From positions 1 through 64,000 of the IMG/VR virus record IMGVR_UViG_3300033153_010326: a DNA stretch of 64,000 nucleotides; one strand, given 5' to 3'. The notes below the pieces were generated by a model. It had not been told where the DNA came from and made no database searches. It saw only the letters and a list, made by a program, of their open reading frames with translations. This document shows, in pieces, positions 5,322 through 52,499 of this stretch. The position numbers were made by a program, and so were the translations under genes. Numbering within the stretch: the first letter of the stretch is position 1; each line of letters begins with the position of its first letter. Origin of the DNA: a virus.

Positions 5322-5340
5322 AATTATTTTTTCCTTATTT

Positions 5341-8101: not shown

Positions 8102-8104
8102 ATT

Positions 8105-8749: not shown

Positions 8750-8750
8750 A

Positions 8751-8951: not shown

Positions 8952-8964
8952 ACTATTCTCCTTT

Positions 8965-33914: not shown

Positions 33915-34310
33915 ATGTTAAGATACCATAAAAAAATATACTTTCCTAAAGATTATATACCTAAATTAAGAAATATGACTGAAATATTAAACTATTCTCA
34001 ATGGCAATATACTGCTCATTGTATAGACCGTATTAAGAATAAAGCATATAATTTACAAGAGGTGTTAAGATTTATTAAAAATATGATATTACAAGTTGAA
34101 AATATATTTGAGTTTTATACCAATAGTTTTAATTTTATTACTAGAATATGCTATCGTATACCTTATAATAAGGATATAGACCTTATATTAATAGTAGGAG
34201 AAGGCAAAAAACTTATAACAATTTATTACAATGCTAGAAGCGATAAGCACTTTACTTTAGATAAAGCCCTATATGAAAAAAAAATTAATAAAACAAAAGA
34301 TAGATTTTAG
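33915..34310 (+). CDS. DUF4258/RelE-BECR-like protein (weak)
   Basis: 131 residues: YTAHCIDRIKNKAYNLQEVL, then RICYRIPYNKDIDLILIVGE and KKLITIYYNARSDKH. His-Arg helix followed by antiparallel strands ending in an ITIYYN strand is the pattern of DUF4258/BECR-fold RNases and related phage proteins. Could be an mRNA-cleaving takeover factor; not proven. Confidence 0.5.
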   Translation: MLRYHKKIYFPKDYIPKLRNMTEILNYSQWQYTAHCIDRIKNKAYNLQEVLRFIKNMILQVENIFEFYTNSFNFITRICYRIPYNKDIDLILIVGEGKKLITIYYNARSDKHFTLDKALYEKKINKTKDRF

Positions 34311-34313
34311 ACC

Positions 34314-34341
34314 TTGACAAAATTCAAATATAGAGTATACT
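34314..34341 (+). promoter_or_regulatory. Rightward promoter with structured leader
   Basis: TTGACA (34314-34319), 16 bases, TATACT (34336-34341). The transcript would start near 34348, just before the stem of the leader RNA. Confidence 0.75.
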
Positions 34342-34351
34342 TAGTATTGCC

Positions 34352-34507
34352 TATTGAGAGAGGTATTAAGGTTAATTAAATTGAGGCTCAACTAGAAGCC
34401 TATATAATAAGTATTATAAAATTAGGCGAATGAATTGAAGGTTTTGAACCTTACTTACTTATTCTAGTAGAGATTAAAAATTTCCATATCTCGTATCTCT
34501 CTCAATA
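34352..34507 (+). ncRNA. Structured leader or small RNA with competing pairings
   Basis: Ends TATTGAGAGAG (34352-34362) and CTCTCTCAATA (34497-34507) form a perfect 11-bp closing stem. Inside are AGGCT...AGCCT (loop CAACTAGA), ATAATA...TATTAT and AAGGTTTTGAACCTT hairpins. The first hairpin loop sequence ACTAGAA (34391-34397) is complementary to TTCTAGT (34462-34468), giving a pseudoknot or an alternative fold. The next gene starts 24 bases after the stem behind GAAAGGA. Confidence 0.65.
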
Positions 34508-34531
34508 TTTTAAAAGAAAGGATAAAATAAA

Positions 34532-34804
34532 ATGTATAAAACCATAGCAGAAGTTAAAATAGCTAATAAAAATAAAGGATATTTTTTCTTTTCTCCTGAT
34601 ACTATGAGATTTTTTAATAGTGAAATTGAAAGCGAAATTATAAAAGGCAAATATTTCATCACTTCTGAAAGAATGAAATTATCAATGCCTAAGTTATATA
34701 CTATAAGAGAAGCAAAAGAAAATGGAAGTATTGATACTGTAGGGAATTTTCAACAATATACAATTAAAATGAACGCCCTTTTATTTATTAAAAATTATTT
34801 ATAA
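34532..34804 (+). CDS. Small phage protein, unknown
   Basis: 90 residues: GYFFFSPDTMRFFNSEIESE, YFITSERMKL, YTIREAKENGSIDTVGNF. The phrase FFS...MRFF...YFITSE is familiar from many short phage/plasmid proteins of unknown role. Expression is probably set by the leader RNA. Confidence 0.65.
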   Translation: MYKTIAEVKIANKNKGYFFFSPDTMRFFNSEIESEIIKGKYFITSERMKLSMPKLYTIREAKENGSIDTVGNFQQYTIKMNALLFIKNYL

Positions 34805-34824
34805 TATTAATAAAAGGATAAATC

Positions 34825-35253
34825 ATGAAATATAAAATAAAAACCAATATAGATACTAGGGGTGTAGCCGAAGATAATATTCTTTTAAAAAAATATCCTT
34901 TTTTAAATTTAATTCAAAAATACCAATATGATGAAAATTTATGTATGAATTATGCTTTAAATACTGATGAAGATTTATCATGCACCGAAGCATTTGAAAT
35001 TATTAAACGAGATTATATACAAATACCTTTAGAGATAGCAAAGGAAGAAGATTTAATAGTTTACCATGATTATAATGAAATTGATGATGATGAATTTGTA
35101 GAACATTTTGCAATTATAAAAGAAGTAAATAAAACTTTAGATAGTATTATTATAAGGAGTAAGTGGGGTAGAATGGGCATATATGAAACTAATATATATA
35201 ATGTACCTAATATATATGGCAATAGAATAACTATATGGAGAAAGAAAAAATGA
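34825..35253 (+). CDS. Papain-like/NlpC-type (DUF7689-like) putative hydrolase
   Basis: 142 residues. DENLCMNYALN gives a candidate catalytic Cys, DLIVYHDYNE a beta strand, EHFAIIKEV a His, and RSKWGRMGIYETN the conserved SKWG loop. This Cys-His order and SKWG motif match small papain-fold proteins common in phages and bacteria. Substrate unknown. Confidence 0.6.
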   Translation: MKYKIKTNIDTRGVAEDNILLKKYPFLNLIQKYQYDENLCMNYALNTDEDLSCTEAFEIIKRDYIQIPLEIAKEEDLIVYHDYNEIDDDEFVEHFAIIKEVNKTLDSIIIRSKWGRMGIYETNIYNVPNIYGNRITIWRKKK

Positions 35254-35433
35254 AATCTCAAATTATGTGGGCTTGGTATGATAATGATACAAAGACCTTT
35301 ATGTATATATATATATATATATGAAGCAAAATTTCAAGTTGAAATGTGTTCGCCTGATGGATTTAAATATAAACAGAAAATCGGACAAGGTAAAATAGTA
35401 AAAGTGACTGTTAGTAAATGGAGGGCGAAATGA
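35250..35433 (+). pseudogene. Gene frameshifted by a TA microsatellite
   Basis: ATG 35250 (overlapping the previous stop) reads MKSQIMWAWYDNDTKTFMYI and then stops at TGA 35322-35324 because of the TA run. The frame two bases longer or four shorter in the run continues YEAKFQVEMCSPDG...VSKWRAK and ends in TGA that overlaps the next ATG exactly as operon neighbours do. So the present allele is off; slippage would restore a ~60-residue protein. Confidence 0.6.
35304..35322. repeat. (TA)9 microsatellite in coding sequence
   Basis: Nineteen bases of alternating T and A within the 35250-35433 gene. Dinucleotide runs of this length slip readily; a change of one unit in one direction or two in the other restores the downstream frame. 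Confidence 0.85.
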
Positions 35434-35909
35434 AACTAGATAGAGATAAAATAATAGAAGTAGGATTAGTTGAGAAATTTGCAAAATCTAAGTATATTAA
35501 AAATAAATTAACAAAAATTTTTAATTATTATAAAGAAGAATATCAATTAAATACTACATTTGAATATTATAATTATCATAGACACCGTAATTTTTATAAT
35601 ATTACTAAAGATATGATAGGTATATCAGAAGAAGGTATACATCATGATTTAAATCAGTTAGTTTTGTTAGAAGTTAATAAGATAGATAATTTTTTAGATA
35701 TGGCTATTTGGTGTTTATTACACGAAATAAAACATTCTATTCAATATCATTATGATAGAGAAAAAAGTGAAACTTATGATGGATTGTATACAAAAATACT
35801 ATATAGCTTTAATTACACTTTTGAAGAACGAGCTAAAAGATATAGACAAATACCCTTAGAAAAAGAAGCTGATGAATTTGCTAATCAAGAAATTAATAAA
35901 TGGAGATAA
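35430..35909 (+). CDS. HExxH metalloprotease-like protein (second copy)
   Basis: 159 residues from the ATG at 35430 (RBS GGAGG); an ATG at 35418 precedes the RBS. LLHEIKHSIQYHYD is the zinc motif and EKEADEFANQEINKW the downstream acidic ligand helix, the ImmA/IrrE-like pattern. Similar in plan to 30129-30602, with the same HEIKH core, so probably a duplicated family. Confidence 0.68.
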   Translation: MKLDRDKIIEVGLVEKFAKSKYIKNKLTKIFNYYKEEYQLNTTFEYYNYHRHRNFYNITKDMIGISEEGIHHDLNQLVLLEVNKIDNFLDMAIWCLLHEIKHSIQYHYDREKSETYDGLYTKILYSFNYTFEERAKRYRQIPLEKEADEFANQEINKWR

Positions 35910-35913
35910 AACT

Positions 35914-36042
35914 ATGACAAAATTTAAAGCAGTATTAGGGCTTATAACTTTATTTGTAGGGGGTTTTATAGTTTTAGGGTTTACTATGTGGCTTGGTTAT
36001 AATACTTGGGTATATATGTGTATTGATTGGATAATTAAGTAA
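35914..36042 (+). CDS. 42-residue membrane protein
   Basis: MTKFKAVLGLITLFVGGFIV continues as one long hydrophobic helix, ending WIIK. RBS GGAG. Function unknown. Confidence 0.6.
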   Translation: MTKFKAVLGLITLFVGGFIVLGFTMWLGYNTWVYMCIDWIIK

Positions 36043-36061
36043 TAGAAAGGAGATAAATAAA

Positions 36062-36172
36062 ATGGTAAAAATACATGCTACTTGGTGGATATGGTATAAG
36101 TATTTATTACCTACAAGATTAACTCTTAAATCTAATCCTAGAATACATAGATGGTTATTTTGGGTATGGTAA
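36062..36172 (+). CDS. 36-residue Trp-rich peptide
   Basis: MVKIHATWWIWYKYLLPTRL, ending WLFWVW. Strong AAAGGAG RBS. Seven Trp in 36 residues suggest membrane-interface binding. Function unknown. Confidence 0.55.
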   Translation: MVKIHATWWIWYKYLLPTRLTLKSNPRIHRWLFWVW

Positions 36173-36224
36173 AAATATTTTTCTTTCTCGTCGGAGTTAA
36201 TAAAGAAAAAGGTAGAAATAGAAT

Positions 36225-36253
36225 TTGACTTTTGTAGGATTGTATGGTATACT
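36225..36253 (+). promoter_or_regulatory. Rightward promoter
   Basis: TTGACT, 17 bases, TATACT with ATGGTATACT extended -10 and downstream TTGATTTAGAAA as at 33530-33558. Confidence 0.75.
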
Positions 36254-36281
36254 TGATTTAGAAATAAAGGAGGAAAATAAG

Positions 36282-36458
36282 ATGAAAATAAACATAGGAT
36301 ATTTTAATGCTGTAAAAGAAAAAGTAAGATTAGAAAGTTATGAATGTGGATTATACGGTCAGATAAAAAATAAATATAGAGTTATATTTTGCAAAGATAG
36401 TAAAGAATTTGTTACTCAAAGAAAATTTAAAAACGGTTGGCTTTGTTTACATAACTAA
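36282..36458 (+). CDS. Small protein, unknown
   Basis: 58 residues from the ATG at 36282 (RBS AAAGGAGG); the frame is open further upstream but only through the promoter. Starts MKINIGYFNAVKEKVRLESY. No family recognised. Confidence 0.65.
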   Translation: MKINIGYFNAVKEKVRLESYECGLYGQIKNKYRVIFCKDSKEFVTQRKFKNGWLCLHN

Positions 36459-36473
36459 TATAGGAATATAATA

Positions 36474-36872
36474 ATGAAAAATAAAATAGGTAAAATACAT
36501 AAAGAAACCTTCATCCGTTGTCAAGGAAATTGTCAAGTGTGTGTTTATAAAGACGGAAATTGTCAACTACAAAAAATTATTAAGAAATATGGATTAGACC
36601 ATATAAGAAATTTGGTATATAATGAAAAAATAGATATACCTGTAAAGATTAAAAGAGGTAGAGGTAGACCTCGCAAGATAAAAACATCATCAGAGGAAAC
36701 CCTAAGACAAGCTAAAGAAACGCTTGGGAAGGGCATACATAGAGGATTTGTATATATTAAATGTATAAGATGTGGAGAAGAAAAAACAATTCATACTCAA
36801 AATAAAGAGCTATATACAGAAGAAATTAAAAAGAATTTTATATGTGTTACTTGTAAAGGAGGAATAAAATGA
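36474..36872 (+). CDS. AT-hook and zinc-knuckle DNA-binding protein
   Basis: 132 residues. N-terminal Cys cluster (CQGNCQVCVYKDGNCQL), then a consensus AT-hook KRGRGRPRKIK (~60-70), then a C-terminal zinc ribbon (CIRCGEEKTI...CVTCKGG). AT-hooks bind the minor groove of AT-rich DNA, which fits this genome. It shares the GRGRPxK core with the 49930-50694 protein. Confidence 0.7.
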   Translation: MKNKIGKIHKETFIRCQGNCQVCVYKDGNCQLQKIIKKYGLDHIRNLVYNEKIDIPVKIKRGRGRPRKIKTSSEETLRQAKETLGKGIHRGFVYIKCIRCGEEKTIHTQNKELYTEEIKKNFICVTCKGGIK

Positions 36873-37054
36873 AAGCTATAGAATTATTGGAATATATATT
36901 ATTTAGATTACCTATCTATAACTTAGAATATTTATCTCTTGAAGATATAGCAAAAGAATTTAAACTATATGATAAATATAAACCTGAAAGCACACAGGAG
37001 GAAATAGCTGAATTTTTATTGCAAAATTTCAGAAAAGGAGGAGAAAATGGCTAA
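36869..37054 (+). CDS. Small helical protein
   Basis: 61 residues, MKAIELLEYILFRLPIYNLE; LSLEDIAKEFKLYDKY could be a short helix-turn-helix. ATGA overlap with the previous gene. Function unknown. Confidence 0.6.
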   Translation: MKAIELLEYILFRLPIYNLEYLSLEDIAKEFKLYDKYKPESTQEEIAEFLLQNFRKGGENG

Positions 37055-37157
37055 TAGAGAAGAAAGAATATTAATCGAGGAATTAGTAAAAGATATTGAT
37101 ACAGATATGCAAGACGAAAGTTATCGTAAGTATGCTTCAAGAGAATTAGAAGTATAA
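37047..37157 (+). CDS. 36-residue acidic helical peptide
   Basis: MANREERILIEELVKDIDTD, ending ASRELEV. AAAGGAGGAG RBS. Unknown. Confidence 0.55.
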   Translation: MANREERILIEELVKDIDTDMQDESYRKYASRELEV

Positions 37158-37204
37158 TAATTAGGAAAAGAATTTTTAACTCAACTATAAAAGGGAGGTT
37201 TAAG

Positions 37205-38008
37205 ATGTGTAAATTTTTTAGTTTAGTATCTAAAGGGAATGGTAAAGCATTATATTTTGATAGTGAGTTAAGGAAAAGGTGTAAGGATGGGGATTTAAAA
37301 GATAGGAATTATGAAGTTGATAGTCATACCTCTATAGCTGATTATTATGGTTATAAAGGTATGATGGAGGATAGATTAAATAAATATGAATATAATCCTT
37401 TAACTAAGAAATTTACTATAGACCAAATAAATACTAAAGATGACTCTGAACAGATAAAGGTATTTTGTAATAGGTTAAATTTTAAGAAGATTATACCTGA
37501 ATTAAATTCACATCCCATTATTAATCCTTTAATAGATATTAAAACTTTAAAGGTTACTAAAAAGGATAAAGAATTATTAAAGGAATGGATAAAGGTTAGG
37601 GATAGTGTTAAGGGTAGTATTGTCGGTAGTGTTAGGGGAAGTGTTGGGGGTAGTGTTAAGGGTAGTATTGGGGGTAGTATTTGGGATAGTATTTGGGGAA
37701 GTATTGGGGATAGTGTTGGGGATAGTGTTTGGGGTAGTGTTGGGGGTAGTGTTTGGGGAAATGTTGGGGGTAGTATTTGGGGTAGTGTTTGGAGTAGTGT
37801 TTGGGATAGTATTAGGAGTAGTGTTTATGCTTATATATCCTCTTTCTTTGATTTAAAACAATACAAGGGTATTAAGCATAAGGAAGGTGTAAATCCTTTT
37901 CAATCTGCTATAGACCTTTGGAATAGAGGTTTAGTACCTGGTTTTGATGGTAAAATTTGGAGATTACATGGTTATAAAGGTAAGGTGTTATATGAAAAGA
38001 AAAGATAA
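37205..38008 (+). CDS. GSVx tetrapeptide-repeat protein
   Basis: 267 residues. N-terminal ~130: MCKFFSLVSKGNGKALYFDS, SHTSIADYYGYKGMMEDRLN. Residues ~134-208 are about eighteen four-residue repeats of type GSVx/GSIx (WGSV, GGSV, WDSI). The C-terminus ends DLWNRGLVPGFDGKIWRLHG. I recall phage and gut-bacterial proteins of exactly this plan, none with known function. Repeats every four residues with Ser and a beta-branched residue suggest a tight solenoid. GGGAGG RBS. Confidence 0.75.
   Translation: MCKFFSLVSKGNGKALYFDSELRKRCKDGDLKDRNYEVDSHTSIADYYGYKGMMEDRLNKYEYNPLTKKFTIDQINTKDDSEQIKVFCNRLNFKKIIPELNSHPIINPLIDIKTLKVTKKDKELLKEWIKVRDSVKGSIVGSVRGSVGGSVKGSIGGSIWDSIWGSIGDSVGDSVWGSVGGSVWGNVGGSIWGSVWSSVWDSIRSSVYAYISSFFDLKQYKGIKHKEGVNPFQSAIDLWNRGLVPGFDGKIWRLHGYKGKVLYEKKR
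37602..37835 (+). repeat. 12-bp tandem repeat array
   Basis: Imperfect units of type GGTAGTGTTTGG/GGGAGTATTGGG encoding the tetrapeptide array. G-rich and T-rich, with no C on this strand over long stretches; expandable by slippage in whole codon steps. Confidence 0.85.
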
Positions 38009-38010
38009 TC

Positions 38011-38199
38011 GTGTTTAGGGTTGCTGTCTTAATTACTACTGGAACAACTGGCAAGAGCTTTGATACTAGAGAGCAAGCTGACGAGTGGCTTCTATCTATG
38101 ATGGATAAGCATAATATTAAAAAGTTTAGGATTAAAGATTTAGATATTAATACTGTAATAGAAACAGAACGAGGTCGGAGGGATAAAAAGGAGGAATAA
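38011..38199 (+). CDS. Small protein, unknown
   Basis: 62 residues from a GTG at 38011 two bases after the previous stop; RBS weak, so coupling is likely. VLITTGTTGKSFDTREQADE and a basic C-terminus (RGRRDKKEE). Unknown. Confidence 0.6.
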   Translation: MFRVAVLITTGTTGKSFDTREQADEWLLSMMDKHNIKKFRIKDLDINTVIETERGRRDKKEE

Positions 38200-38200
38200 A

Positions 38201-38455
38201 ATGGATTTGTATATAATATTTATTCAAAGAAAAGAAAGATATGAAGGACAATATGGAGTAGAAGCAGTTGAAATTGCTGACGAATATACCTATGCTGATA
38301 ATCCTGATTGGTTAAATCATAAATTAGAGGTGTGGCAAGAAGCAGAGGATATTATAAAAGCAGAAATAGTTACTGTAAAAATAAATGAAACAGAAGTGAA
38401 GGAAATTCTTTTTCCTTCTAAAATTTTAAAAGGAGATATAAAAAAGGAGAAATAG
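38201..38455 (+). CDS. Small acidic protein, unknown
   Basis: 84 residues, MDLYIIFIQRKERYEGQYGV; acidic helix WLNHKLEVWQEAEDIIKAEI. AAAAGGAGG RBS. Unknown. Confidence 0.6.
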   Translation: MDLYIIFIQRKERYEGQYGVEAVEIADEYTYADNPDWLNHKLEVWQEAEDIIKAEIVTVKINETEVKEILFPSKILKGDIKKEK

Positions 38456-38458
38456 AAA

Positions 38459-38782
38459 ATGAAAAAACACTTATTATTTTTTCCTAGTCAAATCAATTTA
38501 TTTTTTCCATCTTATCCCTTTCTTTTAATGTGTAAAAAAACAACTCATAATAGAAATATAGTTACTAATTTGCCTAATAAAACTACTTGTAAACTATGTA
38601 AATGAGCTTTAAAAAAGGAAAGAAAAGTGTTAAATAAACTATTAAAAGAAATAAAAAAATGGAAGGAAATTAATATGAATATAGATGATTTTGTATTTGT
38701 ATTTATAAGTTGTATAGCATTAGGTATATTGGTATTTATTGCTTTAACTTTAAATGATTTGGTAAATTTGTTTAGAGAATGA
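38459..38782 (+). pseudogene. Small zinc/membrane gene split by an in-frame TGA
   Basis: ATG 38459 (RBS AAAGGAGA) reads to TTCKLCK and TGA (38603-38605). The same frame continues ALKKERKVLNKLLKEIKKWK, then ATG 38675 with GGAAGG RBS and a membrane helix (FVFVFISCIALGILVFIALT) to TGA 38780-38782. The sequence after the stop is strongly protein-like and a TCKLC-x-ALKKE continuation is expected from similar phage proteins. Present products would be 48 and 35 residues. Confidence 0.55.
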
Positions 38783-38801
38783 GTAAACAAGGAGGAATAA
38801 A

Positions 38802-38942
38802 ATGATATTAGAAATAACTACTGGAATAGAAAATTTAACAAAAGAAACATAGATAAAAATTTGGAATTTAATAGAAGAAGGCTTTACAAGTGGAATAGGT
38901 AGTCCTATAGGGATTAATTGGATATTAACAAAGGAAGAATAA
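38802..38942 (+). pseudogene. Small gene split by an in-frame TAG
   Basis: AAGGAGG RBS and ATG 38802 give MILEITTGIENLTKET, then TAG (38850-38852), then IKIWNLIEEGFTSG...INWILTKEE to TAA. The continuous pattern resembles a known type of short phage protein (LTxEQ...LxxEGFTSG...W). A Gln or Glu would be expected at the amber codon, so a nonsense mutation or suppression is likely. Confidence 0.55.
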
Positions 38943-38945
38943 AAT

Positions 38946-39089
38946 ATGACTAAAAAAATAATCTATATTTCTGATATTCCTATGTTTAAATGCGATACTC
39001 CAAAAAAACGATATAAATTACAAAATCGGCTAAAAAGAATATGGAAAAATATCACTATGAGAATTGTTGGAGATAAATATTATGACTAA
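38946..39089 (+). CDS. 47-residue protein, unknown
   Basis: MTKKIIYISDIPMFKCDTPK with a basic helical C-terminus. Ends within the start of the GGDEF gene (8-base overlap). Unknown. Confidence 0.55.
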   Translation: MTKKIIYISDIPMFKCDTPKKRYKLQNRLKRIWKNITMRIVGDKYYD

Positions 39090-39546
39090 AAAACAATTAG
39101 TAAATGAATTAATAAAATATAAAAAACTTTGTTTAGTAGACACTTTAACAAAATTATGGAATAGAAGAAAACTAAATAAAGATGTAGATATATATTTATC
39201 TAAACAACTAAGATATAATACTTGTTATAATATAGTAATGATTGATATTGATAATTTTAAACAGGTGAACGATACTAAAGGGCATTTAGAAGGCGATAAA
39301 GTTTTAATAGCTGTAGCTAACATACTTAAAAATAACATTCGTAAACATGAAGGCTGTTACAGGTTGTCAGGTGATGAATTTATTTTAATAGTAAAAGGAA
39401 ACAATCCTATGGGTGTAATAAAAAGAATAGAAAAAAGATTATCAAAAATTAATATTAGTATAAGTTATGGTATTAGTTTTATACAAGAAGGAGTGTTAGA
39501 TTTCATAGATAGAGAAATGTATAAAAATAAAAGGAGGAAAAAATGA
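39082..39546 (+). CDS. Stand-alone GGDEF-domain protein (putative nucleotide cyclase)
   Basis: 154 residues from the ATG at 39082, almost exactly one GGDEF domain: LVDTLTKLWNRRKL, MIDIDNFKQVNDTKGHLEGD with the metal-binding Asp residues, and the signature RLSGDEFILIV (~104). GGDEF enzymes make c-di-GMP. The first Gly is Ser here; SGDEF variants have been reported active in some bacteria. No sensor domain or RxxD inhibitory site is obvious. It is unusual in a phage; it could perturb host signalling, or act as a nucleotide-binding protein. Confidence 0.8.
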   Translation: MTKKQLVNELIKYKKLCLVDTLTKLWNRRKLNKDVDIYLSKQLRYNTCYNIVMIDIDNFKQVNDTKGHLEGDKVLIAVANILKNNIRKHEGCYRLSGDEFILIVKGNNPMGVIKRIEKRLSKINISISYGISFIQEGVLDFIDREMYKNKRRKK

Positions 39547-39767
39547 TTATAGGATATTTTGCTAGAACATTTAATAAAAACCATAAATCTTTATCTACAA
39601 AAACTCATATAGTCCATGATGATAAAATATTATGTGGCTATAAACCTCATAAATCTATGCAGTTTCAATGGTGTGCAAGTGTAAATTCTTTAGAATATTT
39701 AGAATGTGAAAAATTACAAAGTAAAGAAAATTTAAAAATAGGAGAAAAAAATGATAGGTATATGTAA
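39543..39767 (+). CDS. Small protein, unknown
   Basis: 74 residues, MIIGYFARTFNKNHKSLSTK, with HIVHDDKILCGYKPHKSMQF and a WCAS motif. Coupled to the GGDEF gene (ATGA). Unknown. Confidence 0.6.
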   Translation: MIIGYFARTFNKNHKSLSTKTHIVHDDKILCGYKPHKSMQFQWCASVNSLEYLECEKLQSKENLKIGEKNDRYM

Positions 39768-39888
39768 ACAATGTGGAAAATGTGAAGATATGACACTTGA
39801 AGAAGCAAAAAGCCCTGGGTGCTTATGTTCTGAATGTTTTAAAAAATATGAGAGTGATGCTTGTGGGAATATAAAAAGGAGAAAATAA
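39751..39888 (+). CDS. 45-residue zinc-ribbon protein
   Basis: CKQCGKCEDM...CLCSECFKKY: up to seven Cys forming a zinc ribbon. TAATG overlap with the AAA+ gene, which it therefore couples to. Confidence 0.62.
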   Translation: MIGICKQCGKCEDMTLEEAKSPGCLCSECFKKYESDACGNIKRRK

Positions 39889-41003
39889 TGTATGTATTAG
39901 GATTATTTGGTATTATGTTTTTAATTTGGTTTTTTGGATTTTATAAATCTTCTGATAATACAGAAGGAAGTATACAAATAACTTCTGTAACAGATGAAGA
40001 AGCGATTAATCATATAAACGCTTCAAAAGATGAAGCGTTAAAAGTAGAAATTAAAGATAGTAAATTTGACCATACTAGAATTATACCCTATGAAGGAGAA
40101 ACTATAAATCAATTTGAATTTAGACCTCAAACATGGGAACAGTTTATAGGTCAAGAAGAAGCTAAAGCTAGAGCCAAAACTATTATAAAGAAAGTGAAGA
40201 AGAATATTAGAGGACATTTAATTTTAAGTGCTATCAAAGGACATGGTAAAACTACCTTCATAGAACTTTTAGCTAAGAGTATGAGAGCTAGATTGATTAA
40301 AAGGATAGGCAAGCAATTAAATGAAGATAGTTTAATTGATATAATAAACGAAATAAACTCTTGTCCTGAAAAAGAGGTAATATTTTTTATAGATGAAATA
40401 GATACTATGGATTGGAAAATTTTAAAGATTTTAAATCCTATTATAGAACAGTTTGAAATTAATGGAAAGAAAATAAAGCCCTTTGTATTTGCAAGTGCAA
40501 CCATTAACAAGCATACTTTAATTAAAAATAATCCCGATACGCTTGACCGAATTCCACATCATATTCAATTTCATAGATACACTGCTAACGATATAAGTAA
40601 AATTATAACTCAATATAAAAATCATTTATATACTGATGAAAATATCCCTAAAGAAGCTATTGAAGTTATTTCTCATTCTTGTAAATTTAATCCTAGAACT
40701 GCTATAGCATTATTAGAAGATTATATTATAGAAAGAAATATGAATATAGTTTTAAAGAATAATAAGATTATAAGGAATGGTTTAAATGATATTGATATAT
40801 CTGTCCTAAAAATATTAAACAACTCTACAAGGGCTATAGGGGCGAATTCTTTGGCTATGCAAGTAGGTCTATCACAAAATCAATACATAAGAGAATTTGA
40901 ACCTTTTTTAGTAGAATTTGGATATATTGCTCGTATTCCGTCAAGAATAATAACACAACTGGGAAGAATAACATTGGAGAAATTAAATGATAAAATTAAC
41001 TAA
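39888..41003 (+). CDS. Membrane-anchored RuvB-like AAA+ ATPase
   Basis: 371 residues from the ATG at 39888 (RBS AAGGAGA). Residues 1-20 (MYVLGLFGIMFLIWFFGFYK) are an N-terminal membrane anchor. The ATPase follows RuvB order: RPQTWEQFIGQEEAK, Walker A AIKGHGKTT, Walker B VIFFIDEIDTMD, sensor 1 VFASATIN, and sensor 2 FNPRTAIALLED. A C-terminal winged helix has the RuvB-like LAMQVGLSQNQYIREFEPFL...RIPSRIITQLGR. RuvB normally drives Holliday junction branch migration and is soluble; anchoring to the membrane is odd. A RuvC-like gene lies at 58954 but no RuvA was seen. Confidence 0.78.
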   Translation: MYVLGLFGIMFLIWFFGFYKSSDNTEGSIQITSVTDEEAINHINASKDEALKVEIKDSKFDHTRIIPYEGETINQFEFRPQTWEQFIGQEEAKARAKTIIKKVKKNIRGHLILSAIKGHGKTTFIELLAKSMRARLIKRIGKQLNEDSLIDIINEINSCPEKEVIFFIDEIDTMDWKILKILNPIIEQFEINGKKIKPFVFASATINKHTLIKNNPDTLDRIPHHIQFHRYTANDISKIITQYKNHLYTDENIPKEAIEVISHSCKFNPRTAIALLEDYIIERNMNIVLKNNKIIRNGLNDIDISVLKILNNSTRAIGANSLAMQVGLSQNQYIREFEPFLVEFGYIARIPSRIITQLGRITLEKLNDKIN

Positions 41004-41517
41004 TAAAGAAAAATATTGGTTAGCAGGATTTATTGATGGTGATGGTTGCATAGCTATAAGATTAGGCTATATATCACATAAAAGAAAAAAATTTAAATTA
41101 TATAAAACCTATAGTTATATTAGACCTTCGGTAGAAATAGGAAATACCGATAAAAATGTTATAAAAGAAATTTCTAAATTATTAAATTCTAAATATAGAA
41201 CTATAAAAAGAAAAAGAGGATATAAAAACTTTTATATTATTACATTATCAATTAAAAGCAGTATAGAATTATTAATCATTATTAAAAATTCATTAAAAAT
41301 AAAAAAACCTCAAACAGAACTATGTTTACATTTATATAAAACTTTTAGTAATCATAAAAGAACAATTCAAGGAAGATTTAGAAAATTAGATAAAAGAACT
41401 ATAAAAAAGAGGTTTTATTTATACAAACAATGTAAACTTTTAAATAAAAGAGGTAAACCAATAATAAATAAAAATCAATTATTAAAAAAATTAAGAAAGG
41501 AAGGGTTAATAAAATGA
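40987..41517 (+). CDS. LAGLIDADG homing endonuclease
   Basis: 176 residues, one motif YWLAGFIDGDGCIAIRL, then the usual strands (VEIGNTDKNVIKEISKLLNS, YIITLSIKSS). Single-motif enzymes act as dimers. It starts inside the last codons of the AAA+ gene, a free-standing insertion. Confidence 0.85.
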   Translation: MIKLTNKEKYWLAGFIDGDGCIAIRLGYISHKRKKFKLYKTYSYIRPSVEIGNTDKNVIKEISKLLNSKYRTIKRKRGYKNFYIITLSIKSSIELLIIIKNSLKIKKPQTELCLHLYKTFSNHKRTIQGRFRKLDKRTIKKRFYLYKQCKLLNKRGKPIINKNQLLKKLRKEGLIK

Positions 41518-41903
41518 AGAAACAAAAAATAATCAAAACTTATTTTCCAACTTGTCCTAAAAATTTAAGAAAATATTTTAAAATTTCTTGGATAGATAAA
41601 TCAATAACAGAATTAGAAGATATTTATAAAACAAACAATCGTAAGTTGAATAAACATTGTAAAACTGCTTTACTCTATTATATTCACTATAATTATAAAG
41701 AAATAGAACAATTTGCAATAGAAAGTTATACTTCTCCACTTTTATATTTGGCTTTTAATAAATGTTTAAACCTGCTTGAAAATATAGAATTGTATAGTTA
41801 TTTATTACTTACAGCACTTTTAATTCTCAAAAAAACAGAAACTAGCAAAAAATTTCCAGAATTGAAACTATATTGCGAAAGGAAATTAAATGATAGTATA
41901 TAA
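41514..41903 (+). CDS. Unknown helical protein
   Basis: 129 residues, helical, with a hydrophobic stretch ELYSYLLLTALLILKK. Overlaps neighbours at both ends. Not recognised. Confidence 0.6.
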   Translation: MKKQKIIKTYFPTCPKNLRKYFKISWIDKSITELEDIYKTNNRKLNKHCKTALLYYIHYNYKEIEQFAIESYTSPLLYLAFNKCLNLLENIELYSYLLLTALLILKKTETSKKFPELKLYCERKLNDSI

Positions 41904-42282
41904 ATGGGTACATAAAAAAGGCGATAAATATTATAGCTTAATGAATTTCGGCTTTACTAAACTATCGGAAGAATTTAAAACAAATCAACCTCCTTACGAA
42001 CTTGGAAAGAGTTATAATAATATTCATAAAGAATATAAAAGTTTAATGCTACAATTTAGAAATAAAAAAGGATATATACCACAATATATTAAAAAAGGTT
42101 TTTATTTGTGGATAAATAAAAATACTAAGCCTAATAAAAAACAATTAGATAGAATGAAAATATTAGGAGGAGAGATTAATGCAGTATTAGAATGTTATAT
42201 TTCTATAAATGATATACTTTCTTATGAAAGAGGAAATAACTGTATAAGAGTAAGCAAAATGAAAATAATAAGGGAAATATGA
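41890..42282 (+). CDS. Small phage protein, unknown
   Basis: 130 residues: YKWVHKKGDKYYSLMNFGFT, GFYLWINKNTKPNKKQ, INAVLECYISINDILSYERG, ISKMKII-type ending. The order (aromatic strands, GFYLW helix cap, then ECYI strand) is familiar from small phage proteins with GFHxW motifs. Function unknown. Confidence 0.6.
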   Translation: MIVYKWVHKKGDKYYSLMNFGFTKLSEEFKTNQPPYELGKSYNNIHKEYKSLMLQFRNKKGYIPQYIKKGFYLWINKNTKPNKKQLDRMKILGGEINAVLECYISINDILSYERGNNCIRVSKMKIIREI

Positions 42283-42324
42283 TAAACATAATCCACAGTT
42301 TAGAGTATTAAAAGAGGAATTATT

Positions 42325-43152
42325 ATGATACAGAAATATAAAGAATGGTTAGAAACTATACAAAGACTATCTCCTAATACTATTCAATCGTATTTAGGTA
42401 GAGTTGGGATTTTATCTAAGTATATAAACTTAAATGAATTAAATGAGGAAAATATTAATCAATTTTTGATTAGTTATACTAAAAATAAATCTAAAAGTAC
42501 TTTCAATGGTTACATTAATACTATAGCTTCTTTACTAAAATTTCTAAAAAAAGATATTAAATTAAATCAACAAGTAATTATTAAAGAACATACTCCTAAC
42601 TACATTACTGAAAAAGAATTTTTAGAAAGGTTAATACCAGTTGTGGAATATTATTGCGAAAGTAATGCTTTACAAATGAAAAGTTTATTATATTTTATGT
42701 TCTATACAGGGGCTAGATTATCCGATATAAACTATCTTTTAAGACAAGACATTGACTTTAAAAATAAATATGTAACCTTTAGAAGTGGAAAAGGAGATAA
42801 GGATAGAGATGTTCCTTTATTAGATTGTGTTATAGAATTATTACAAAAATATTTTAATGTAGAAATAGAAGAAATCAATGCTTTTAATGTTAAAGCAAAC
42901 ACTTTAAGAAAAAGGTTAATTAGTATTAGAGAAATATTGGGAGATTTAAAATTTACTGCCCATACCTTAAGACATTCTTATGCTATGTGGTATCTTAACG
43001 AATTTAGGGGTAATATTAGAAACTTACAATTAAATATGGGGCATAATGATATTAAAACTACTATGAAATATTTAAACATAAAAAATAAAGATAGGATAGA
43101 GGGTTTTAAAACTAAAGAAAAAGAATGGAAGAAAAGAACAAAAAGAAGATAA
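42325..43152 (+). CDS. Tyrosine recombinase/integrase
   Basis: 275 residues. N-terminal SAM-like core-binding domain (SPNTIQSYLGRVGILSKY), catalytic domain with Arg in FYTGARLSDINYL, HTLRHSYAMWYL (HxxR), MGHNDIKTTMKY (His and nucleophile Tyr). Lys lies in FRSGKGDKDR. Complete active site. Could integrate the phage, or resolve or invert DNA. No obvious att repeat was found next to it. Confidence 0.9.
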   Translation: MIQKYKEWLETIQRLSPNTIQSYLGRVGILSKYINLNELNEENINQFLISYTKNKSKSTFNGYINTIASLLKFLKKDIKLNQQVIIKEHTPNYITEKEFLERLIPVVEYYCESNALQMKSLLYFMFYTGARLSDINYLLRQDIDFKNKYVTFRSGKGDKDRDVPLLDCVIELLQKYFNVEIEEINAFNVKANTLRKRLISIREILGDLKFTAHTLRHSYAMWYLNEFRGNIRNLQLNMGHNDIKTTMKYLNIKNKDRIEGFKTKEKEWKKRTKRR

Positions 43153-43154
43153 AA

Positions 43155-43487
43155 ATGAAAAAATATGATGTATATTGTCCTTTTTGTCAAAATCTTTTAA
43201 AAAATTGTGAAAATTATGTTAAATGTAATAATTGTAAAACTAAAATTAAAATAATTTATACTATAATCCCTTGTAAAAATTGTAATAAACAAAAATTTAT
43301 AAGTTATATTCAAAAAAACGATAAAGCAACTTATTGTAATAATTGTGGACATATGATAAAACAATCTAAATTAGTTGCTCAAAATATTTTAGAAGAAAGA
43401 TTAAAATTTAAAACTACTATACCTAAAGATTATTGGACAGATATACAAATAGACTTATATAAAATAGGAAAAGGAGAAAAAATATGA
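43155..43487 (+). CDS. Double zinc-ribbon protein
   Basis: 110 residues from the ATG at 43155. Four CxxC pairs: CPFCQNLL, CNNCKTKI, CKNCNKQK, CNNCGHMI, i.e. two ribbons, followed by a helical tail. Lies right after the integrase and might be its partner, but this is only adjacency. Confidence 0.62.
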   Translation: MKKYDVYCPFCQNLLKNCENYVKCNNCKTKIKIIYTIIPCKNCNKQKFISYIQKNDKATYCNNCGHMIKQSKLVAQNILEERLKFKTTIPKDYWTDIQIDLYKIGKGEKI

Positions 43488-43759
43488 TATATACTAAACA
43501 ATCTATATGGACAACTTGTGATGGAAGAAGAATACCTTATGATAAATTAGAAGATACTCATTTAGCAAATATAATAGATTTTATAGAAAAAAGTAAATGT
43601 CCGACATTTGAAATTTTAACAATATTAAAAAACATTGCTAAAGAAAGAGGGTTAAAAAAAGAATTTTTAGAAAGGTCTCAAATTCCTTATAAAAATAAAT
43701 ATAATAAATGGGAAATATATAACTTTAAAAATCATACTTTCCAAAAAATAGAAAAATAA
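43484..43759 (+). CDS. Small conserved-type phage protein
   Basis: 91 residues with IWTTCDGRRIPYDKLEDTHL and NIIDFIEKS, the WTTxDGxxIPxxxMxxxHLxNxI theme seen in many phages. Function unknown. Confidence 0.65.
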   Translation: MIYTKQSIWTTCDGRRIPYDKLEDTHLANIIDFIEKSKCPTFEILTILKNIAKERGLKKEFLERSQIPYKNKYNKWEIYNFKNHTFQKIEK

Positions 43760-43773
43760 AAAAGGAATAAAAT

Positions 43774-43923
43774 ATGAAAGAAAGAATGAAGCTATTAAAA
43801 AAATTAGATAAACTCCGGAAACAATTAGATATTGTTGTTAATGGAGACCAATATTGTAATGAATATAAATTAGAAGAAAGAATAAAAGAATTAGAAAATA
43901 GATTAAAAATAAAAAATATTTAA
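43774..43923 (+). CDS. 49-residue coiled-coil protein
   Basis: MKERMKLLKKLDKLRKQLDI and later EERIKELENRLKIK form a coiled coil. AAGGAA RBS. The following 313 bases hold only AT-rich sequence, a terminator and a promoter. Confidence 0.6.
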   Translation: MKERMKLLKKLDKLRKQLDIVVNGDQYCNEYKLEERIKELENRLKIKNI

Positions 43924-44109
43924 CTCCTTTAATATAAAGAAGTTATATAAAATCTAATATAAACTCCTATTATAAATATATATAGTAATCAATAATTAAG
44001 ATTAATTAAGACTAATATATCTTTTTATTATTTATATAACTATATAAATAGAACTTACTTAATTGCTCAATAAGAATATATTATTGATAAAAGAAGGTGC
44101 ATATATCGG

Positions 44110-44152
44110 CTACCTTTTGATTTTCTTAACAAATTAATAAGAAAAAAGGTAG
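44110..44152 (+). terminator. Terminator of the 36-44 kb unit
   Basis: CTACCTTTT-GATT-TTCTTA pairs with TAAGAA-AAAAGGTAG, a stem of about 15 bp with an internal bulge. Lies between the last early gene and the next promoter. Confidence 0.65.
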
Positions 44153-44171
44153 TTATATTGTACCATTTTAC

Positions 44172-44201
44172 TTGCACTTGAACTAGATTGTATGGTATAC
44201 T
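44172..44201 (+). promoter_or_regulatory. Rightward promoter of the replication region
   Basis: TTGCAC, 18 bases, TATACT inside TACTTGCACTTGAA...ATGGTATACT. Same core as the two leftward promoters, now pointing right. Confidence 0.8.
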
Positions 44202-44236
44202 TATAGTGAGTAAATTTATTGAAAGGAAAATTTATA

Positions 44237-44392
44237 ATGGTGCATTTAAAAAAAGTAGGGAAATTATTTCAATTAAGTTTTTTTAGAGGAGGAACGGAAT
44301 TAGTTTACGATATGAATTGGAAAGAGATGGTAGTATTATTTTGTTTAGTTTCTTCAATAATGTGTAAATTTGTAAAGTCAAAGAAAAAATAA
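44237..44392 (+). CDS. 51-residue membrane-associated protein
   Basis: MVHLKKVGKLFQLSFFRGGT, then a hydrophobic helix (MVVLFCLVSSIMCKFV) and basic tail. GAAAGGA RBS. First gene of the operon; unknown. Confidence 0.6.
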   Translation: MVHLKKVGKLFQLSFFRGGTELVYDMNWKEMVVLFCLVSSIMCKFVKSKKK

Positions 44393-44458
44393 GAAGTATG
44401 GGCGTTGACTGTGTCGATAGCTCCTCTGCTTCTTAACTAATAAAAATAAGGAAATAAT

Positions 44459-44671
44459 ATGGGAGCATTAATAACAATTACAAAGGTTGAACTAAAAAAT
44501 GATAAAGCTAAAGTTACTTTTGAATATAATAATGATTTAAAAGATACTATTTGTAATTACTATGGAGTTAAGAGAGCTACTAAGGCTAAGATTAGAGATT
44601 TCTTCCTTCAAGCGGTGATGGAGGGAGTTATGAAACACAAGAGAAGGGGATTAGGTAGAGATAATGAATAA
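44459..44671 (+). CDS. Small protein, unknown
   Basis: 70 residues: beta start (MGALITITKVELKNDKAKVT), then a basic helix (KRATKAKIRDFFLQAVMEGV). Could bind nucleic acid. Unknown. Confidence 0.6.
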   Translation: MGALITITKVELKNDKAKVTFEYNNDLKDTICNYYGVKRATKAKIRDFFLQAVMEGVMKHKRRGLGRDNE

Positions 44672-44918
44672 GAAAATAAGGGAGATATTAAAAGGATATA
44701 AATTAGGAGAACATGACAGAAGAAGCGGTTTACGCTTTGAACTTTATGATACTGACCAAGCTCTTTTCGTCATAGAACAAGAGATTAAGAGATGTATGGG
44801 GGAAGATATACCAAGTGTGTATGATATAAAAACAGGCAAAAAGCACATTGAGCAATATAATGAAGGATATAGTCATAGAGCCAAAAACTTTTGGGAGGCG
44901 TGGAGAGGAAAGAAATGA
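44664..44918 (+). CDS. Small protein, unknown
   Basis: 84 residues, MNKKIREILKGYKLGEHDRR, mixed charge, ending FWEAWRGKK. Overlaps both neighbours. Unknown. Confidence 0.6.
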   Translation: MNKKIREILKGYKLGEHDRRSGLRFELYDTDQALFVIEQEIKRCMGEDIPSVYDIKTGKKHIEQYNEGYSHRAKNFWEAWRGKK

Positions 44919-45151
44919 AATATATAATTATATTAATAATGATGATGGCTTTTATATTTCCTATGAAAGAAGTTAAACCTTCTTCTAATATTGAAACTAT
45001 TGTAGATAAAATGGAACAATGGCAAAGAGATAATTTAGAAAAGAAAGCGGAAAGATTAGATAGGATTAGGCAAATTATTAATATAAGAGATAGAGTAGAA
45101 GGTAAAATAAAGAAACCTAAAAAGCCCAAGAAGCCTAAAAAGGAGAAATAA
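44915..45151 (+). CDS. Exported or membrane-anchored basic protein
   Basis: 78 residues from the ATG at 44915. MKYIIILIMMMAFIFPMKEV is a signal sequence or anchor, followed by an amphipathic helix and a repeated KKPKKPKKPK tail. A lysine/proline tail can bind teichoic acids, lipids or nucleic acid. Function unknown. Confidence 0.6.
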   Translation: MKYIIILIMMMAFIFPMKEVKPSSNIETIVDKMEQWQRDNLEKKAERLDRIRQIINIRDRVEGKIKKPKKPKKPKKEK

Positions 45152-45152
45152 A

Positions 45153-45215
45153 GTGAAAGTTATTAATTTGATAAAAAATAATGAAAAAATAAATTTATGG
45201 GAATTTAGCAGGTAA
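45153..45215 (+). CDS. 20-residue GTG-started peptide (doubtful)
   Basis: AAAAGGAGAAATAAA precedes GTG at 45153: VKVINLIKNNEKINLWEFSR. The RBS argues for translation, the length against certainty. Confidence 0.35.
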   Translation: MKVINLIKNNEKINLWEFSR

Positions 45216-45216
45216 T

Positions 45217-45324
45217 ATGAAAGTAATATTAATTGTGGGAGATAAAATTGAGGAATATAAAAAGAAAGTAGGATTTTGGACAGAAACTCATTATAGAAAA
45301 ATAGATTATAAGAGGAAGAAATGA
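45217..45324 (+). CDS. 35-residue peptide, unknown
   Basis: MKVILIVGDKIEEYKKKVGF, basic C-terminus. RBS is poor (AGCAGG). Ends by overlap with the next ATG. Confidence 0.45.
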   Translation: MKVILIVGDKIEEYKKKVGFWTETHYRKIDYKRKK

Positions 45325-45563
45325 AAGATAAAGATATAAAATTATTCTCAAAAGCGATACATAACGCAAAAAAAGTTATACAAGATATAGAAACAGAAAG
45401 ACAAAAAGCACATGAAAAATTAAATAAATCAATACATACTATAAAACAAGTTCGTAATTCTCATGATAAAAAAATGAAAAAATTAACAGAAGAAGTTAAA
45501 GAAATATTAGATGAAGTTTATGAATTGTTTGAAGATTTGTATGAAGAAAAAACAGGAGAATAA
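45321..45563 (+). CDS. Coiled-coil protein
   Basis: 80 residues, heptads throughout (KVIQDIETERQKAHEKLNKS; LTEEVKEILDEVYELFEDLY). AGAGGAAG RBS. Unknown. Confidence 0.62.
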   Translation: MKDKDIKLFSKAIHNAKKVIQDIETERQKAHEKLNKSIHTIKQVRNSHDKKMKKLTEEVKEILDEVYELFEDLYEEKTGE

Positions 45564-45564
45564 A

Positions 45565-45810
45565 ATGGATAATGATTTTGTTTTAATTAGACTTGAAAGA
45601 TTAGCAAAAAAAATATCAACTTTAGAGGGAACTCTTTTAACTACATCTAATATGTTAGAAGATAAGGATAACAAAGATTCTGTTTATTATGCAAAAGAAA
45701 ATATAGAAGGAGTTGCAGAATTTTTAAATGATATAAGAAATGACGTAGATTTATTGTGCGAACAAATTAATAAAAAAGAAACAGGATTAGATTTGGAAAA
45801 TCCATTTTAA
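45565..45810 (+). CDS. Coiled-coil/helical protein
   Basis: 81 residues from the ATG at 45565 (CAGGAGAATAAA RBS). RLERLAKKISTLEGTLLTTS and FLNDIRNDVDLLCEQINKKE are helices. Likely interacts with the preceding coiled-coil product. Unknown function. Confidence 0.62.
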   Translation: MDNDFVLIRLERLAKKISTLEGTLLTTSNMLEDKDNKDSVYYAKENIEGVAEFLNDIRNDVDLLCEQINKKETGLDLENPF

Positions 45811-45825
45811 AGGAGAAAACTAAAT

Positions 45826-46194
45826 ATGCCTTATATCTCAGCGAAAAATGATAGAAGAAAGAAATTAAGACATGGAGAACCTGCTTTAAATGCAGGAGAG
45901 TTAAATTATCAAATTTTCTATTATATTAAACATTATGATTGGAGAAAACATCACCAAATTGATTATACAATGATACAAACTATACATAAATTTGTTAATA
46001 AATTTTTAGGAAAAAATCCTAATTACCAGAGGTGGAATGATATGACAGGTTGTTTGATAAGATGTTATAAAGAAATTAAAAGAAGGTTGAATATAAATGT
46101 TAAGGAGATATTGATAGAGATTATGGAAGATTATGATAATGAAATTGCAAGATACGAAGATACTAAAATTATTTCTAATTCGGATGTAGAGTAG
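45826..46194 (+). CDS. DUF6899-like phage protein
   Basis: 122 residues beginning MPYISAKNDRRKKL, with NAGELNYQIFYYIKHY, a Tyr/Asn core and an ARYEDTKIISNSDVE end. The MPYI...GELNY...YExxK...DV signature is a widespread phage family; no function known to me. Confidence 0.65.
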   Translation: MPYISAKNDRRKKLRHGEPALNAGELNYQIFYYIKHYDWRKHHQIDYTMIQTIHKFVNKFLGKNPNYQRWNDMTGCLIRCYKEIKRRLNINVKEILIEIMEDYDNEIARYEDTKIISNSDVE

Positions 46195-46524: not shown

Positions 46525-47144
46525 AGCTAGCAGGAGCGATTGAGTTTGATACCAAAGATGGTGGTCAAACTTGGAGGAATAGTATAACTATTCCTTTAGA
46601 TGAAATGGGAATTTATGTTGGAGACCCTGTAAAGACTGAACCTGTTGCTACTGGTATGGATGTTATGGAAGCTCAAAATAAATTTAATGGGTGGATTCAA
46701 TCAGGTAATTATGATATATTTGAAAAGATGTTTACAAGAATTGTTCAAAAAGATATTAGATTAGTTAATAGAGCAGATTTTTTGATTGTTCATTTATTTC
46801 CTGATATACCTACTACTGGAACTATTCACGAAATGGCTTTAGCGTGGATGCAAAAGAAACCTATATATTTAATATGGAAAGATGCTAAGAGCAAATTATC
46901 AAAGTGGGCATTATATTTAGTTATTTCTTCAGGAGGGCGATTATTTGATAGTGAAAATAAACTTACAGAGTTTATAAGGGTAAAATATAATCTTAAAAAT
47001 CAAAGTTTTAGAGTTCAATTTATTCAAATTATAAAAGCCATAAGTAGACTTATAGAGGAAAATTTATATAATTTAAAAACGAATAGTAATGGTAATCAAG
47101 AAAAAATTAAACAGGACTTAGAAAAGAAAGAGGAGAAGAAATAA
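46521..47144 (+). CDS. Nucleoside 2-deoxyribosyltransferase-like protein
   Basis: 207 residues from TTG 46521. KLAGAIEFDTKDGGQTWRN is the Rossmann-like first strand and nucleotide-binding start. DIRLVNRADFLIVHLFPD and TTGTIHEMALAWMQKKPIYL carry the acidic residue and GTxxE motif of the family. These enzymes exchange or hydrolyse the base of deoxynucleosides or nucleotides. The C-terminal ~60 residues add a charged helix. No own RBS; translation depends on the leader peptide. Confidence 0.7.
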   Translation: MKLAGAIEFDTKDGGQTWRNSITIPLDEMGIYVGDPVKTEPVATGMDVMEAQNKFNGWIQSGNYDIFEKMFTRIVQKDIRLVNRADFLIVHLFPDIPTTGTIHEMALAWMQKKPIYLIWKDAKSKLSKWALYLVISSGGRLFDSENKLTEFIRVKYNLKNQSFRVQFIQIIKAISRLIEENLYNLKTNSNGNQEKIKQDLEKKEEKK

Positions 47145-47860
47145 TGAGGCGATTTAAAGGAGGAGCTACCAGAAATAATGATGAAAATAAAAATGATTAT
47201 GATGGTTTTTTATCTTCCATGGTATTAAACAAATATGACCAATTTTTAGAAAGAGAAAATCAAATTGCATGGGCTTCTGGTTTGTTTGAAGGAGAGGGTT
47301 GTGTTTTTAAAGCTACTACAAAAAACAAACATGCTCGTTTAGAAATTAAATTAACAGATGAAGATGTATTACAAAGATTTTTAAAAATTGTTGGATATGG
47401 AAAAATATATGGGTCTTATTGGGCTAAAAAAAGTACAAAACCTTATTGGTCATGGCAATGCAACAAAGACCAAGAAACTATAGAAGTATTAAAATTACTT
47501 TATCCTTATTTAGGAACAAGAAGAAAAAATAGAGTAAAAGAAATTTGTTCTATAGAAAGACTTGCTGAAATAAATGCAATGCCTCCTTTAGTTATAAAAG
47601 CTTTTGGTGATTATATGACTAAACATAGAAAACAAGCAGATGGAAAGTTAAGACCAAGTGATAATTGGAAAAAAGGCATACCTCAAGAAGCTTATTTCCA
47701 ATCAGCATGGAGACATTTTTTAGATGTATATTTGCATCATAAAGGATATAATGATAAAACTACAGAAAATCTAGAAGATTCTCTTTGTGCATTGATTTTT
47801 AATATAATGGGATATTTGCATGAATTATTGAAAAATAAATTATTGAAGGATAAAAAATAA
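47144..47860 (+). CDS. MazZ/DUF5664-type dNTP pyrophosphohydrolase interrupted by a LAGLIDADG domain
   Basis: 238 residues. Residues 1-36 (FKGGATRNNDENKNDYDGFL) and 147-238 (MPPLVIKAFGDYMTKHRKQA, SDNWKKGIPQ, SAWRHFLDVYLHHKG, LCALIFNIMGYLHELL) fit the GATR...NWxKGIP...RH family, which includes phage dATP/dGTP diphosphohydrolases. Between them sits a LAGLIDADG module (IAWASGLFEGEGCVFKAT, RKNRVKEICSIERL). The host motif FLSSMVLNKYDQFL recurs as MPPLVIKAFGDYM after it, as if the insertion duplicated the target. No intein splice residues are evident. Confidence 0.75.
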   Translation: MRRFKGGATRNNDENKNDYDGFLSSMVLNKYDQFLERENQIAWASGLFEGEGCVFKATTKNKHARLEIKLTDEDVLQRFLKIVGYGKIYGSYWAKKSTKPYWSWQCNKDQETIEVLKLLYPYLGTRRKNRVKEICSIERLAEINAMPPLVIKAFGDYMTKHRKQADGKLRPSDNWKKGIPQEAYFQSAWRHFLDVYLHHKGYNDKTTENLEDSLCALIFNIMGYLHELLKNKLLKDKK

Positions 47861-51974: not shown

Positions 51975-52096
51975 TTATTTGTAAATATTGTAAAAGAGAA
52001 ATACCTAATAAAAATCTTATAACTAAAAATGGATGCCGATGGTGTTCGGCAGAATACCATCAAAATAAAAATAATGAAAAAATTAAAGATAAGTAA
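51971..52096 (+). CDS. 41-residue zinc-knuckle protein
   Basis: MIICKYCKREIPNKN, then GCRWCSAEYHQ: compact CxxC...CxxC. GGTGG RBS. Unknown. Confidence 0.6.
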   Translation: MIICKYCKREIPNKNLITKNGCRWCSAEYHQNKNNEKIKDK

Positions 52097-52499
52097 AAAA
52101 GATTTAATAAAAGCTTATAATATTGATAGATTAAAACTTCAAGAAATTTGTATTAGATTTGCTTGTGGAGAAACTACTGTAGTTAGATTATTAAAAAGAT
52201 ATAAGATTTTTAAAAGAGGAATGGTATCATCTATAGGAAATAAAAAGTATACTTCTAAAGGATATATTTTAATTTTATTACCATTTCATCCTTTTAGTTC
52301 AAAACGAGGATATGTTAGAGAACATAGATTAATGATGGAAAAGTATCTTGGTAGGTATTTAAAAAGAGAAGAAGTAGTTCATCATGAAAATGATATTAGA
52401 GATGATAATAGGATTGAGAATTTAAGATTATTTTCTAATCAAGGTAAGCATAACAAGTTTCATAGGAATCGTGTTAATAAAGAAAAAGGCAGTTTCTAA
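52074..52499 (+). CDS. HNH homing endonuclease
   Basis: 141 residues from ATG 52074. N-terminal helix-turn-helix (IDRLKLQEICIRFACGETTV), then the phage HNH_3 signature: VREHRLMMEKYLGRYLKREE, VVHHENDIRDDNRIENLRLF and QGKHNKFH. Free-standing; lies before a promoter. Confidence 0.85.
   Translation: MKKLKISKKDLIKAYNIDRLKLQEICIRFACGETTVVRLLKRYKIFKRGMVSSIGNKKYTSKGYILILLPFHPFSSKRGYVREHRLMMEKYLGRYLKREEVVHHENDIRDDNRIENLRLFSNQGKHNKFHRNRVNKEKGSF

Follow-up and report, generated by a model that had tools for sequence, protein, structure and literature searches.

The window analyzed here, a stretch of 64,000 nucleotides from the 104,368-base virus record of an uncultured phage (~27% G+C, the value for the window), carries a gene encoding a GGDEF domain that stands alone. 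Does the phage thereby bring its own diguanylate cyclase into the host, or has the domain been turned to another use?

The gene and its surroundings

The GGDEF protein, P0001, is encoded by an uninterrupted frame of 154 codons running from an ATG to a TGA (Table 1), and the opposite strand of this interval contains many stops. A GGAG is located at 39069-39072, 9 nt ahead of the ATG, and the stop codon shares an ATGA with the start of the following ORF. P0001 is confirmed as a real gene, and it was the sole GGDEF gene found in its virus record by profile search. The GC3 of the gene was 0.14, compared with 0.17 in the downstream AAA+ ATPase gene; this value fits the phage and gives no sign of recent import, and a recent acquisition from a host was rejected on base composition.

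The genes between ~1 and 28 kb, tail proteins among them, lie on the minus strand, and those between ~30 and 63 kb lie on the plus strand, divergent from the tail genes. P0001 is located inside this second run, among small phage genes. The run holds primase/helicase-like, UvsX-like recombinase, RuvC-like resolvase and integrase-like recombinase genes, which makes it plausible that P0001 belongs to an early operon and would be expressed early. A scan for promoters and terminators gave counts no higher than in shuffled sequences. The small ORF that overlaps the start of the GGDEF gene was 41% similar over 41 aa to positions 9576-9746 of L006, a relative without GGDEF.

Table 1. Features of the GGDEF locus, with positions in the window
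Feature	Position	Strand	Basis
Upstream small ORF, 47 aa, overlapping the GGDEF start	38946..39089	+	ORF list, comparison
Stand-alone GGDEF protein P0001, 154 aa	39082..39546	+	Open frame, SD-like GGAG, Pfam GGDEF, AlphaFold model
Short N-terminal stalk helix, residues 3-16	39088..39129	+	DSSP on model
DIDNFK, residues 55-60, metal/phosphate site	39244..39261	+	Alignment
RKHE at residues 87-90, c-di-GMP inhibition site deviating from RxxD	39340..39351	+	Alignment with WspR, DosC
SGDEF signature, residues 96-100, in beta hairpin	39367..39381	+	Sequence, alignment, model
ORF after GGDEF, 74 aa, no family; ATGA in common with the GGDEF stop	39543..39767	+	
Second small ORF between the GGDEF and AAA+ genes	39751-39888		ORF list
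RuvB-like AAA+ ATPase, hydrophobic N-terminus	39861..41003	+	RuvB_N 1.7e-12, RuvB_C 2.8e-09; marker for finding related phages

Other features of the window were recorded as well. The gene at 37205-38008 encodes a 267-aa protein of no Pfam family with a long stretch of Gly/Ser/Val/Trp repeats (approximately residues 135-215). Mobile endonuclease-type genes (LAGLIDADG, NUMOD3 and HNH) are numerous, being located at 88-777, 22224-22862, 40987-41517 and 52029-52499. A dATP/dGTP diphosphohydrolase-like gene at 47144-47860 is apparently split by a LAGLIDADG endonuclease domain, a candidate intein or insertion, and the shorter homologues from L007 and L008 align with it in two pieces.

Conserved residues and predicted fold of P0001

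P0001 matched the Pfam GGDEF family (PF00990) over residues 19-134 with an E value of 7e-31 (107.6 bits, cut-off 23.8), which excludes a chance match, and NCBIfam TIGR00254 with 1.2e-28. The single complete GGDEF domain reported in the first-pass annotation was therefore recovered, together with its SGDEF signature and an intact DIDNFK, and the protein lacks a sensor domain. Residues D20, D55, D57, F59, K60, N63, D64, G97, E99 and F100 occupy invariant columns in an alignment of 16 viral sequences, in which the columns of D72 and R87 are nearly invariant. Among the catalytic positions, only the first glycine of the signature is changed, being S96 here, so that the motif reads SGDEF and not GG[DE]EF; D55, K60, N63, D72 and D98/E99 were all present in the alignments.

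We take the metal Asp, the Lys and the guanine-binding Asn and Asp roles of D55, K60, N63 and D72 to be those of their equivalents in PleD, and N63 and D72, which follow DIDNFK, presumably point to guanine. In the Hypr GGDEF enzymes, which make cGAMP, the guanine Asp is replaced by Ser; P0001 has D72 at this position.

The AlphaFold monomer model of P0001 had a pLDDT of 95.0 and a pTM of 0.87. When superposed on solved diguanylate cyclases and related GGDEF domains, it gave Z scores of 18-20.5 with 132-154 residues aligned, the best match being 4yme (Z 20.5, rmsd 1.3, 137 residues), and the Foldseek comparison with SiaD gave an E value of 3.5e-13. The structure prediction proposed as a check in the first-pass annotation thus returned a diguanylate cyclase fold, in a monomer modeled without GTP, and the geometry of the active site was judged from the residues and fold of this ligand-free model. 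Family, fold and conserved residues all back a GGDEF protein of the diguanylate-cyclase type, as had been claimed; to call P0001 a cyclase is to put forward a hypothesis on how it works, not a class membership. Diguanylate cyclases act as dimers, and the model, which has a 14-residue N-terminal helix as its only stalk and lacks a dimerization domain, may count against activity.

Counterparts in related phages

By megablast, positions 34000-46000 matched none of 50,697 phage records, and nothing was found among viral contigs with the UvsX-like protein as a query. With the AAA+ protein, five related records (G001-G005) were obtained, 56-67% identical, and a metallophosphoesterase query added eight more, four having a distant AAA+ protein (28-35%) and four having no AAA+ match; all of these related records may be fragments. 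When genome contigs were scanned with an AAA+ alignment, a single distant match (23%) came up. Contigs fetched twice were counted once (L002/L026, L003/L027, L004/L038, L007/L011/L019 and L013/L020/L072). When the 13 related records and G000 were searched with the GGDEF profile, three of the 14 were positive, G000, G003 (L007) and G005 (L013), that is, half of the six records with a close AAA+ gene.

In L007 and L013 the GGDEF gene precedes the AAA+ gene by ~1 kb. This slot is occupied by GGDEF in the window and L007, by an HNH-GGDEF protein in L013, by RtcB in L008 and by two small ORFs in L006, one of them being the one similar to the small ORF ahead of the window's GGDEF gene. The RtcB RNA ligase gene of L008 (1602-2948) matched its Pfam family with 3.8e-112. 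The N-terminus of the RuvB-like AAA+ protein is hydrophobic and resembles a membrane helix, as judged by eye, in five of six close relatives, the window included (L005-L007 and L013), and not in L008.

The AAA+ gene is indeed the next but two after the GGDEF gene, being the third ORF downstream, and the first-pass annotation had suggested that the two form a signaling unit. The conservation of the neighborhood, which it had offered as a check, held in part: GGDEF was located upstream of the same AAA+ gene in three diverged phages, which favors the pairing, but it was missing in seven of the ten AAA+ records. The absence is weak evidence in G001, since on the upstream side of its AAA+ gene this record extends for just 744 bases. 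Furthermore, the genes between GGDEF and AAA+ differ from phage to phage. Because the AAA+ protein is RuvB-like and mostly found in records without GGDEF, the signaling unit is unsupported; the pairing was rejected and we regard it as barely conceivable.

The GGDEF proteins of the window, L007 and L013 are 46-48% identical and grouped as one clade (support 98/97) when a tree was built from 25 viral GGDEF domains, a subset of the loci fetched. These three proteins have shorter loops after the hairpin than the rest of the aligned viral domains. The window hairpin reads YRLSGDEF; that of L013, YREYRGDEF, has one extra residue, and that of L007, YRIGGGADEF, has two, corresponding to an in-frame difference of 6 nt; L007 also has N in place of the guanine-binding Asp. 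GG[DE]E is present in the 26 further viral GGDEF loci examined, some of them near-identical to one another (for instance RVGGDEF in L025, RIGGDEF in L037 and RIGGEEF in L012, read by eye). The inhibition site ahead of the hairpin departs from RxxD in the window (RKHE) and in L007 (RKYE) and follows it in L013 (RQGD). In the L007 model (pLDDT 90.3) the strands of the hairpin are kept and its turn is longer, and the N-terminal helix of 29 residues (4-32) exceeds that of the window protein. Sister proteins with zero, one or two extra residues provide a natural series on the tolerance of the GGDEF hairpin.

The L013 protein (349 aa, positions 7998-9047) carries, N-terminal to its GGDEF domain, an HNH nuclease-like stretch that matched Pfam HNH with 0.0034, below the cut-off, and PADLOC models of the HNH type with 4.8e-07 and weaker values. 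A scan with this fusion found no second one, the matches being the protein itself and two host-type GGDEF proteins. The hairpin insertions of L007 and L013, together with the N at the D72 position in L007, suggest that the lineage may not keep c-di-GMP synthesis. Taken with the HNH-like region, the remodeling of the hairpin leads to a further reading, highly unlikely in our estimation, according to which the GGDEF domain of this lineage would have left c-di-GMP signaling to become a regulator that senses or makes nucleotides and governs the cleavage of phage DNA, as a GGDEF-controlled nuclease, the window gene being its free-standing form.

Possible roles and known systems

The reading that we favor, tentatively and at a little below an even chance, is that P0001 is a phage accessory protein, a sensor-less diguanylate cyclase making c-di-GMP, its activity being predicted from the residues and the model. 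Two copies, each with one GTP, would meet and form c-di-GMP, which would raise the pool of the host or a local one, and this rise would shift surface structures, motility or attachment to the benefit of the phage. The output would be set by expression and not by a signal, because there is no sensor domain and the inhibition site has been changed to RxxE. That three diverged phages keep the GGDEF gene in the same location argues for this cyclase. A profile search of the virus record for PilZ or EAL domains gave no match, and neither did Rfam, the c-di-GMP riboswitch included (cmscan at the gathering threshold on the window, L047, L048, L007 and L013, with the record covered up to its final 668 bases). 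Hence, a riboswitch or a PilZ/EAL partner in the record was rejected, and any c-di-GMP target must be the host's.

SGDEF variants can be active, as the first-pass annotation had said. The host proteins ECA3270 (SGDEF) and VCA0965 (AGDEF) are described as active and, like the window protein, differ from the canonical signature in its first residue only; VCA0965, which has an N-terminal membrane region, is reported to lose its activity when this residue is Ser (PMC3974145). Therefore, the activity of P0001 is not to be assumed, and S96 may or may not be tolerated by catalysis.

A non-catalytic GGDEF module, which would bind GTP or c-di-GMP or associate with a host cyclase and act as a sensor, a sink or a partner, is an unlikely alternative to which several observations nonetheless point: the hairpin varies in a lineage whose proteins are otherwise 46-48% identical and is kept in the other viral loci, the guanine Asp is lost in L007, and degenerate GGDEF domains are known as c-di-GMP receptors (PMC3974145). 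The window copy, however, keeps the hairpin length and all of its catalytic residues but one, and its RxxE weakens a receptor role through that site. The gene could also be a passenger, with a weak selected function for the phage or none, in a variable slot shuffled by homing endonucleases, as the changing contents of the slot and the abundant LAGLIDADG and HNH genes would allow; this appears distinctly unlikely, given that the frame and core residues have survived deep divergence (47% identity vs. 27-38% for the neighboring integrase) and that the gene is coupled to the next by ATGA. The window protein also keeps N63 and D72, as we take c-di-GMP makers to do. P0001 matched none of the PADLOC families (E 0.01, 10 proteins submitted), and the link to cyclic-nucleotide defense proposed in the first-pass annotation found no support. 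Both observations count against a different product, either a cyclic dinucleotide like cGAMP or c-di-AMP or an atypical molecule made from GTP, which might feed or confuse host cyclic-nucleotide defense, a very remote prospect to which the altered hairpin, the N of L007 and Panoptes would point, the last being a case of palm-domain enzymes in phage-host cyclic-nucleotide conflict, there on the side of host defense (PMC12657218).

If the predicted cyclase is active, the phage would set host c-di-GMP solely through gene dose, a compact means of controlling attachment or surface glycans, which can matter in infection, and P0001 may thus change the behavior of the host. Infection by phage N4 is reported to need c-di-GMP (PMC8669472). 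A precedent is Bordetella phage LK3, which has a GGDEF gene and whose lysogens are associated with hyperbiofilm formation (PMC8471281), and a Mu-like marine virus with a diguanylate cyclase has been reported (PMC7785012). In L003, a flagellin-like ORF (by eye; 5212-6030, minus strand) is located near a GGDEF gene whose product has a hydrophobic N-terminus (7863-8471, plus strand).

The bacterial proteins SiaD, WspR, DosC and PleD share the fold (Z 18-20) and active-site residues of P0001; they differ from it in their sensor, receiver or coiled-coil parts and in their GG[DE]EF signature. The two best viral structural matches, SP15_150 of Bacillus phage SP-15 and gp350 of Bacillus phage G, are likewise phage-encoded but longer, at 183 and 254 aa; both have a hydrophobic N-terminus (by eye) and a canonical GGEEF or GGDEF. 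By tblastn, P0001 matched 134 of the 50,697 phage records, all below 60% identity. The 154-aa AGDEF protein of phage Epa38 matched 47 records with an identity of at least 60%, the best 40 of these 47 being Pseudomonas and Bordetella phages.

The genes of such Yuavirus-type phages (YuA gp44; Epa38 38_00075) encode GGDEF proteins that, like P0001 (and with the same length in Epa38), lack a sensor domain and RxxD, have a changed first signature residue and short loops after the hairpin, and are set among small phage genes. They differ in reading D-L-D-S-L-K where the window has D-I-D-N-F-K, and the phages themselves are ~60 kb long, with neighboring genes unlike those of the window, and are presumably high-GC. 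Membership in their clade was rejected, as the window, L007 and L013 grouped without Epa38 in the tree, although the long branch of Epa38 (3.95) makes its own position unsure. Stand-alone GGDEF genes are thus a kind already annotated in phages, of which the window gene is a further, separately rooted member.
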